Source: a virus. From it: a stretch of DNA of 35,301 nucleotides. Position 1 is the stretch's first letter. Every line of letters begins with the position of its first letter. Below are positions 20,321 to 29,878 of this stretch, in pieces. The translations under genes were made by a program, and so were the position numbers. The DNA is taken from the IMG/VR virus record IMGVR_UViG_3300032220_000304, positions 1 to 35,301 of that record; one strand, given 5' to 3'. The notes beneath the pieces were generated by a model. That model saw only the letters and a program-made list of their open reading frames with translations. It was not told the DNA's origin and searched no databases.

Positions 20321-20500
20321 ATGGTTGATAACCACGAAACCGCAAAGACCATAGGGGATGTGTTATCAATCACGACGGTTGTGGGGACATTGGCCCAGGT
20401 TCTTCCTTCGATTGCGGCGATCTTCACCATCGTTTGGACGATGATTCGCATCTATGAAACTAAGACCGTTCAGTCATGGCTTCGACGTTTGAGGGGCTAG
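20321..20500 (+). CDS. 59-residue membrane protein, putative holin
   Basis: This short gene has an ATG at 20321 behind CAGGTG and ends one base before the next start. The product has a polar N-terminus (VDNHETAKTIGD), a hydrophobic stretch at about 14-43 that can form one or two membrane helices, and a basic end (WLRRLRG). Small proteins with this layout occur beside tail genes in podovirus-like phages and are often called holins. A second holin candidate lies at 28822, so this one could be an antiholin or a membrane channel used at entry. Role unproven. Confidence 0.78.
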   Translation: MVDNHETAKTIGDVLSITTVVGTLAQVLPSIAAIFTIVWTMIRIYETKTVQSWLRRLRG

Positions 20501-28573: not shown

Positions 28574-28822
28574 ATGCGCCGTATCAAGATCGTCGATTCG
28601 GATGCGCCAGGGGAACACCACGAGGTGTCCTTTGCCGAAGCGGCCCAGCAGATGATCGCAACCGCCCTGGCGGATGGGGCGGTGGCGATCATGGTTACTT
28701 GGGAAACCCCGAGCGGCTACAAATACGCGGCGGTTCCGTACAGCCATGCGGTTCTGAGGGGGCTTTCGGATCAAGCCTATTCAGAACTCTGGATTAAGCC
28801 TGAAGAATCGGAGGATGATTGA
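28574..28822 (+). CDS. Small hypothetical protein before holin
   Basis: This 82-residue protein starts three bases after the phosphoesterase stop, behind a G-rich GGGAGGGGG site. The N-terminus is basic (RRIKIVDSD), the middle helical (FAEAAQQMIATALADGAVAIMV), and the C-terminus acidic (KPEESEDD). No membrane helix long enough for a holin is evident. It overlaps the holin start (TGATG), so it may be a lysis-module accessory. The family is not recognised. Confidence 0.78.
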   Translation: MRRIKIVDSDAPGEHHEVSFAEAAQQMIATALADGAVAIMVTWETPSGYKYAAVPYSHAVLRGLSDQAYSELWIKPEESEDD

Positions 28823-29214
28823 TGTTTGCGGCCCTGCTGCCTGTACTGGCGCCGATTCTTGGGGATGTGATCCGCCGCCTTGTCCCTGATCAGGGCGAGC
28901 AGGGGCGAATTGAGGCTGAACTGTCCATCGCCCTGATGCAACGCGCCCAGGAGATCGAGACTGCCGCTGCTGATATTGTGAAGACTGAGGCAGCTTCGGA
29001 ACACTGGCTAACCGCCACCTGGCGCCCGGTGGTTATGCTGGTGCTTACTTCATTGATTGTAGCCCGGTGGCTTGGGTATAGCGCCCCAGGTATCTCAGAA
29101 GCGGAGGCGCTGAAGCTATGGTCTATCGTGGAGATTGGCTTGGGCGGTTACGTCATTGGGCGTTCAGCCGAAAAGATAGCCCCAGTGATGGCGGAAGCGA
29201 TGCGGCGCCGGTAG
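28822..29214 (+). CDS. 3TM-type holin (GTA holin-like)
   Basis: The start is ATG 28822, overlapping the previous stop. The 130-residue product resembles the 3TM holin family of gene transfer agents and alphaproteobacterial phages. It has an N-terminal hydrophobic segment (1-20), a charged helical middle, then HWLTATWRPVVMLVLTSLIVARWLGY (about 61-86) and LWSIVEIGLGGYVIGRSAEK (99-118), and a basic tail (EAMRRR). It would permeabilise the inner membrane so the endolysin can reach the wall. The endolysin gene overlaps its 3' end by 97 bases in another frame. Confidence 0.88.
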   Translation: MFAALLPVLAPILGDVIRRLVPDQGEQGRIEAELSIALMQRAQEIETAAADIVKTEAASEHWLTATWRPVVMLVLTSLIVARWLGYSAPGISEAEALKLWSIVEIGLGGYVIGRSAEKIAPVMAEAMRRR

Positions 29215-29723
29215 ATCGTTTTCTACCATGCCTGAAGATTGTTCTACACCATGAGGGCGGCTGGGCAGACCATCCAAAAGACCCTGGCGGCGCCACTATG
29301 CGAGGTGTTACTCTAGCAACTTACCAGAAGTTCCTTGGCCGGAAAGCCACCAAAGACGAACTCAGGAGAATCAGCGATGGCGAGTTGGAAGCGATTTATC
29401 GAAGTTATTACTGGGAGCCTGCTGCTTGTGGCCGGATGCCTAGTGGCGTTGATCTGGTTGTCTTTGATATGGCCGTTAACGCAGGCGTTAAACGCGCTAT
29501 CCGCATATTGCAAGAAAGTGTGGCTAGTCCAGCGGATGGAATCGTGGGGCCGCAAACTGTGGCGGCGGTGGCGAAACAAGACCCACTATTTCTAATTCGT
29601 CAGTATTCAGATGGGCGCCGGGCTTTCTACCAGGGGCTTGGCGCTTACGTCACATTCGGCAGGGGCTGGCTTCTCCGTGTCGATGAGGTGGAAGCCGAAG
29701 CCATTAAAGGGGCGAAGAAATGA
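29118..29723 (+). CDS. GH108 endolysin
   Basis: This 201-residue muramidase-like endolysin is of glycoside hydrolase family 108. FLPCLKIVLHHEGGWADHPKDPGGATMRGVTLATYQ (about 35-70) contains the catalytic Glu at 46. The C-terminal part (PADGIVGPQTVAAVA onward) matches the family's peptidoglycan-binding region. The only early in-frame starts are ATG 29118 (GGAGG ten bases upstream) and TTG 29139, both inside the holin gene. The protein therefore carries an unusual N-terminal extension of about 30 residues. There is no signal peptide, so release would depend on the holin. Confidence 0.9.
   Translation: MVYRGDWLGRLRHWAFSRKDSPSDGGSDAAPVDRFLPCLKIVLHHEGGWADHPKDPGGATMRGVTLATYQKFLGRKATKDELRRISDGELEAIYRSYYWEPAACGRMPSGVDLVVFDMAVNAGVKRAIRILQESVASPADGIVGPQTVAAVAKQDPLFLIRQYSDGRRAFYQGLGAYVTFGRGWLLRVDEVEAEAIKGAKK
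29377..29595 (+). CDS. Possible nested membrane-protein gene inside endolysin
   Basis: Out of frame within the endolysin lies a 72-codon ORF whose ATG (29377) follows AGGAG (29364-29368) by eight bases, one of the best ribosome binding sites in the window. In the endolysin frame that site is the uncommon Arg pair AGG-AGA. The predicted protein has a single membrane helix (about 13-34, SLLLVAGCLVALIWLSLIWPL) and a very basic C-terminus (WGRKLWRRWRNK). It could be a second holin, antiholin or other lysis factor. An out-of-frame artefact remains possible, since GC-rich alternate frames often look hydrophobic. Confidence 0.45.
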   Translation: MASWKRFIEVITGSLLLVAGCLVALIWLSLIWPLTQALNALSAYCKKVWLVQRMESWGRKLWRRWRNKTHYF

Positions 29724-29878
29724 AACCGACTAAGGCTGACAAGAAGATGTCTAAAGTTTTAGGAGAATACAAGGCTGGCAAACTGCATTCCGGCTCAAAG
29801 AAAGGCCCGGTGGTGAAATCCGAAAAGCAAGCTATGGCTATTGCGCTTTCTGAGGCTGGTAAATCGCGCAAGAAGTAA
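29720..29878 (+). CDS. DUF6496-like basic peptide, 52 aa
   Basis: The ATG at 29720 overlaps the endolysin stop (ATGA). The 52-residue product KVLGEYKAGKLHSGSKKGPVV, then KSEKQAMAIALSEAGKSRKK, matches the DUF6496 pattern seen in phages and bacteria, function unknown. About a third of the residues are Lys or Arg, suggesting nucleic acid binding. It is the last plus-strand late gene and is followed by two hairpins. Confidence 0.82.
   Translation: MKPTKADKKMSKVLGEYKAGKLHSGSKKGPVVKSEKQAMAIALSEAGKSRKK

Follow-up and report, generated by a model that had tools for sequence, protein, structure and literature searches.

The stretch of DNA analysed here, referred to as the window, is a viral sequence record of 35,301 bases whose portal and capsid genes are of the SU10 type (PF23899, PF17236). 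Its lysis cassette consists, in order and on the plus strand, of an 82-aa ORF, a PF11351 holin gene, a GH108 endolysin gene and a DUF6496 gene. The 82-aa ORF (28574..28822), located 5' of the holin gene, has neither a predicted membrane segment nor a family match. The holin gene (28819..29214), starting at TTG 28819 or ATG 28822, belongs to the GTA_holin_3TM family (PF11351, phrog_3427), with a PF11351 match of 43.3 bits against a cut-off of 24.8. It is followed by the GH108 endolysin gene (29118..29723; PF05838, E = 4.9e-28, plus PG_binding_3), in whose product no membrane segment was predicted, and the last gene of the cassette (29720..29878) encodes a 52-aa DUF6496 protein. At the usual start position the window endolysin (29118-29232) has no ATG, GTG or TTG. 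The sole such codon in frame 5' of the endolysin domain is ATG 29118, which lies within the holin gene, and its Shine-Dalgarno (SD) energy of -9.5 is the strongest among the 17 genes tested; with ATG 29118 as the start, the endolysin ORF therefore overlaps the holin gene by 97 nt. The related endolysins at loci L053 and L055 have both an ATG equivalent to 29118 and an ATG at the usual place.

A nested ORF in the endolysin gene

The endolysin gene is the host of a second ORF of 72 aa on the same strand (29377..29595), which lies in the +1 frame of the endolysin and runs from an ATG to a TAA. The initial annotation, made from the sequence of the window, had called attention to a well-spaced AGGAG site before this ORF, and we found the site as described, at 29364..29368, with an 8-nt spacer to ATG 29377 and a duplex energy of -7.4. 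It had also pointed out that the site imposes an AGG-AGA pair on the endolysin frame; the pair is present at 29364-29369, and both codons are rare, accounting for 22 and 1 of the 263 Arg codons in the 14 main genes. The nested frame is also open 5' of this start, back to TTG 29335 (86 aa), but sequence comparison identifies ATG 29377, rather than TTG 29335, as the conserved start.

The single membrane helix and basic tail attributed to the product in the same annotation were borne out. Hydropathy and alignment place one strong hydrophobic stretch (KD19 2.49) at about residues 11-34 (29407..29478), the C-terminal part (residues 46-72; 29512..29592) is basic, and residues 37-72 carry a charge of +8. 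Columns L22, A24-I26 and L30-L34 are invariant in an alignment of 12 rows. Across the variants described below, the net charge of the N-terminal 11 residues ranges from 0 to +2 and that of residues 37 to the end from +3 to +10. Because more positive charge follows the helix than precedes it, an N-out/C-in topology with a basic cytoplasmic tail appears the likelier one. AlphaFold predicted a single long helix, residues 2-71 (about 70 residues; mean pLDDT 81.2, pTM 0.33), a model that we consider uninformative as to function.

We estimated from the window how readily such an ORF arises by chance. When the endolysin's own synonymous codons were shuffled, a +1 ORF of 72 aa or more with an ATG start appeared in 14.5% of 4000 shuffles, and an ORF of that length with a helix, allowing any start and either frame, in only 0.85%. 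An SD sequence at least as strong as -7.4 precedes 3.9% of the 256 out-of-frame ATGs in 17 window genes. The sequence of the window by itself is thus suggestive of a nested gene.

Homology searches did not identify the product. The nested protein had no match at E 1 in 50,697 phage records (tblastn) and none in a PDB sequence search, and the profile libraries gave no named family at the thresholds used, the best PHROG matches being weak and unnamed. A megablast of window positions 12000-35301 against phages was likewise without a match. A releasin (DUF2730) was rejected, as there was no DUF2730 match and the endolysin, with no predicted membrane segment, is not of the SAR type.

Conservation among related endolysins

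Six scans of viral contigs yielded 264 loci with a related endolysin. Exclusion of truncated endolysins and of those short of query residue 140, and merging of identical sequences, left 116 distinct full-length sequences, a count that excludes genome loci L109-L168, L001 and loci fetched later. The nested frame, encoding a strong helix (KD19 ≥ 2.1), was found in all 13 other distinct full-length endolysins that are 61.9-98.2% identical to that of the window, and these carriers sit on 19 viral contigs besides the window. The start codon is ATG in 12 of the 13 and CTG in L012. Conservation in related GH108 genes was the check that the initial annotation had put forward, with loss of the start from a conserved endolysin as the outcome that would speak against a gene; start, SD-like site and frame are kept in the close relatives, with the CTG of L012 as the exception. 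The SD sequence of L009 is weak (-2.6). AGG occupies the SD codon in 6/7 carrier representatives versus 1/20 outgroup representatives, and the Asp codon GAT followed by G, which creates the ATG, occurs in 7/7 carrier versus 1/20 non-carrier representatives. The 72-aa variants (the window, L009, L013, L053 and L055) stop at one shared column, and the 56-aa variants (L015, L016 and L027) lack the last 16 residues.

Of the remaining 103 of the 116 sequences, nearly all lack the helix-bearing ORF or have it in degenerate form. It is wholly missing from 92; in six there is a 40-aa ORF whose hydrophobic stretch is weak; two at 60.7% identity (L022 and L024) have a degenerate 50-aa form with an Arg in the hydrophobic stretch; and three more distant endolysins have unrelated short ORFs, one of which, in L298, is strongly hydrophobic. 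L022 and L024 retain the SD sequence and the ATG despite the 50-aa length of their ORF, and this form may represent either decay or an early stage; the L025-L033 group may likewise reflect decay or birth of the ORF. The L298 ORF (54 aa, GTG start, KD19 3.04) occupies about the same place in an endolysin that is 42% identical, and is possibly an independent case or a product of chance. Among 59 GH108 genes of bacterial genomes, only two contain a nested ORF that encodes any hydrophobic stretch, even a weak one. Scans of viral contigs with the nested protein itself revealed no copy outside an endolysin gene. A scan with the nested-protein alignment returned 23 loci, comprising the 19 known contigs and four others (L169-L172), at which distant GH108 genes match in the +1 frame but lack the helix. 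As to whether the nested clade had one origin or two, 50% of bootstrap trees require one change.

Evidence for selection on the second frame

Divergence, codon usage and z scores were compared among sequences with less than 90% nucleotide identity, comprising 7 of the 14 carriers (the window and six lineages of 72 or 56 aa) and 20 of the 42 non-carriers. Mean divergence at 4-fold sites among the seven carriers was 0.28 inside the nested ORF and 0.58 in its flanks, and among the five 72-aa representatives 0.19 versus 0.60 (p 4e-6). In the 20 non-carriers the corresponding values were 0.63 and 0.62 (p 0.75). When pairs were matched for amino-acid divergence of 0.3-0.4, carriers gave 0.21 (8 pairs) versus 0.66 for the outgroup (55 pairs). 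Divergence at third positions was 1.12 times that at first positions in the nested ORF, compared with about 2.5 times in the flanks and about 2.0 times in non-carriers. The third bases of the endolysin frame are frozen across the nested hydrophobic segment. Endolysin codons 73 (Ser/Thr/Asp) and 78 (Val/Cys/Ser/Ala) vary among carriers and yet always end in T, so that the nested residue stays hydrophobic.

Similarity in the nested frame exceeded that in at least 99.8% of endolysin-only simulations for 13 of the 14 carrier pairs simulated, out of 21 carrier pairs; the L027-L015 pair showed no excess. In the z test, applied to all 21 carrier pairs and to 190 non-carrier pairs, the mean z was 4.08 versus -0.90 in the +1 frame and 2.50 versus -0.78 in the +2 frame. 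Since carriers have raised values in the +2 frame too, part of the signal reflects general nucleotide conservation or the shared ancestry of an exchanged tract.

Two explanations of this pattern dispense with a nested protein. According to the first, there is no gene: the +1 frame would be a by-product of endolysin codon choice, and third-base divergence would be low because the tract was recently exchanged between lineages. Endolysin-only simulation leaves the frame open with a probability of 10-15% per lineage, the tract has been exchanged (see below), the distant endolysins L169-L172 match in the +1 frame without encoding a helix, and the rise of the +2 frame fits as well. Recent exchange, however, should not leave the carrier endolysin protein more divergent in the nested tract (0.37) than upstream (0.21) while third-base divergence is lowered in the same place, which is the reverse of what recency predicts and argues that it is not the explanation. 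With flat outgroup controls and a conserved start, SD codon and stop column, we regard the absence of a gene as very improbable. The second explanation, that an RNA or DNA element instead of a protein holds the third bases, found no direct support and is extremely unlikely, since the constraint extends over the entire ORF and T is favoured at the third positions of endolysin codons, which are the second bases of hydrophobic nested codons. There was no Rfam match, and the consensus fold was weak, with an unfavourable covariation term (+1.05) and a double change in 1 of 34 pairs; an RNA element was rejected on the absence of an Rfam match and of a covarying structure. We read the low third-base divergence in carriers as a mark of selection acting on the second reading frame. 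The nested ORF is very probably a real gene, and it is the comparative evidence that turns the case for it from suggestive to convincing.

Exchange of the endolysin interior

Carriers and non-carriers can differ by little more than the endolysin interior. In the alignment of L010 (carrier) with L021 (non-carrier) there are no mismatches from -95 to +86 around the aligned endolysin start, dense mismatches from +87 to +431 and then four mismatches up to +619; the nested ORF occupies +148 to +366. The exchanged tract is thus about 345 bp (L010:3088-3432) in cassettes that are otherwise nearly identical, and the upstream 172-aa protein, which is encoded in the holin position (phrog_1544, no annotated function), is 100% identical between the two. 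More broadly, L017-L021 and L023 have a nested-minus interior and L009 and L010 a nested-plus one, and all share the upstream 172-residue protein, the endolysin N-terminus and the downstream gene. The nested gene is thus gained or lost together with the interior of the endolysin gene. Identical cassette parts accompany a nested-minus interior, so at least one lysis cassette can do without the nested gene. The proposal in the initial annotation that the nested gene fills a missing lysis role is accordingly not supported, as a cassette with an identical 172-residue upstream protein lacks it. Nor was that annotation quite right in finding no separate candidate for such a role: a distinct, conserved 59-aa ORF at 20321-20500, with one helix and a basic tail, has relatives at 188 viral stretches. 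This ORF has no Pfam or PHROG match, and its product may be a second small membrane (holin-like) protein.

The gene in the holin position also differs among carriers, being the PF11351 holin in the window type, L053 and L055, the 172-aa type in L009-L016 and a Phage_holin_10 protein in L027. All PF11351-type loci tabulated are carriers. The presence of three different holin-position genes argues against a holin-specific partner. In many relatives a 154-aa protein (L010:1999-2463), weakly hydrophobic at its N-terminus, is encoded 5' of the 172-aa gene; it is missing from PF11351-type cassettes and has no family match.

Patchy presence, allele-like exchange in a nearly identical cassette and the lack of a fixed holin partner are the pattern of an accessory gene, and they lend some weight to a selected gene that does not serve lysis, such as a late membrane protein for superinfection exclusion or for interference with a membrane-based host defence that happens to be carried inside the endolysin gene. 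The ORF nevertheless lies entirely within the lysis cassette, so it is presumably expressed late only, and no defence or exclusion family was matched in the libraries searched (PADLOC not among these). We consider a function outside lysis rather unlikely. Somewhat more plausibly, though still tentatively, the gene might be a mobile lysis modifier in an exchangeable endolysin segment, which is swapped in pieces of about 345 bp, would work with at least three different holins and would act in a general way, on the membrane or on endolysin access, not on one partner.

Discussion

We propose, with moderate confidence, that the nested ORF is a real overprinted gene for an inner-membrane protein, most likely one with an accessory, holin- or antiholin-like role in lysis. 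On the lysis-cassette mRNA, the AGGAG site would direct ribosomes to start at ATG 29377, and the product, of 72 aa or of 56 aa in some relatives, would insert into the inner membrane through its one N-terminal helix and tune the timing or speed of membrane opening for the cytoplasmic GH108 endolysin. We infer translation, membrane topology and any lysis role from these sequence features. The product fits the description of a small protein with at least one predicted membrane helix encoded in a lysis cassette. A lysis-type role is favoured by its late lysis-cassette location beside a PF11351 holin, whose family includes the tested holin TeaA; either an antiholin or an extra-holin role is possible.

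A spanin-like disruptor of the outer membrane, whether an i-spanin, o-spanin, u-spanin or membrane-anchored cationic peptide, would account for the cationic helical tail of the long variants, for the lipobox-like GC at residue 21 in the window type, L015 and L016, and for a cassette in which no spanin is recognised. Residue 21 is, however, Tyr in L009, L013, L053 and L055 and Ser in L027, so a lipoprotein is not conserved; a second membrane signal is absent; L015, L016 and L027 stop about 20 residues past the helix, a length insufficient to bridge the periplasm; the C-in topology is favoured; and the nested-minus relatives have no recognised spanin either. A spanin-like function is very improbable on these grounds, and spanin roles were rejected on the lipobox Cys missing in most lineages and the short 56-aa variants; nor does the nested gene stand in as an essential replacement for a spanin.

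Gene callers pass over nested genes, and a spanin survey reports the frequency of unannotated embedded lysis genes (PMC6139136). For these uncultivated phages, it is comparative data, not one sequence, that indicate a selected membrane protein within the endolysin gene. The natural carriers and non-carriers, which have the rest of the cassette in common, offer a ready means of comparing lysis in the presence and in the absence of the nested gene. Editing or codon optimisation of a phage endolysin gene may delete a second product.

Several known systems resemble the arrangement in part. Mu gp25 is a releasin (DUF2730) that carries an anionic tail and serves to release SAR endolysins (PMC9239132); it shares with the nested protein a single N-terminal membrane helix, a predicted N-out/C-in orientation and an endolysin partner, whereas the tail of the nested protein is cationic and the endolysin here has no predicted membrane segment. 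In phage ICP1, TeaA is a tested holin of the PF11351 family that is accompanied by a separate membrane antiholin, ArrA (PMC7182436), and the lysis region of the window likewise encodes, beside its PF11351 holin, a further small protein with a predicted membrane helix. Unlike the nested ORF, ArrA is not described as nested in the endolysin (PMC7182436); the nested gene, moreover, is found in some cassettes that lack a PF11351 holin. The embedded spanin genes Rz/Rz1 of phage lambda provide an example of one lysis gene in the +1 frame of another (PMC6139136). Rz1 is described there as an outer-membrane lipoprotein encoded inside the i-spanin gene, whereas here the outer gene is an endolysin and the lipobox Cys is not conserved (PMC6139136).

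In the literature searched, in which subscription journals were mostly missing, we found no description of a gene nested within a GH108 endolysin gene. The closest precedent, compared by arrangement and not by sequence, appears to be the holin-like gene embedded in the endolysin gene of phage 187, where a gene for a small membrane protein reportedly also lies entirely within the endolysin gene and out of frame. The host of phage 187 is Gram-positive, and the phage 187 endolysin is an enzyme of another kind. The present case is unlike it in that the enclosing enzyme is a GH108 protein and a separate PF11351 holin is encoded upstream. A gene embedded in an endolysin gene is thus a known arrangement; what appears to be new here is the different enzyme family, the comparative evidence of selection and the natural presence/absence allele.
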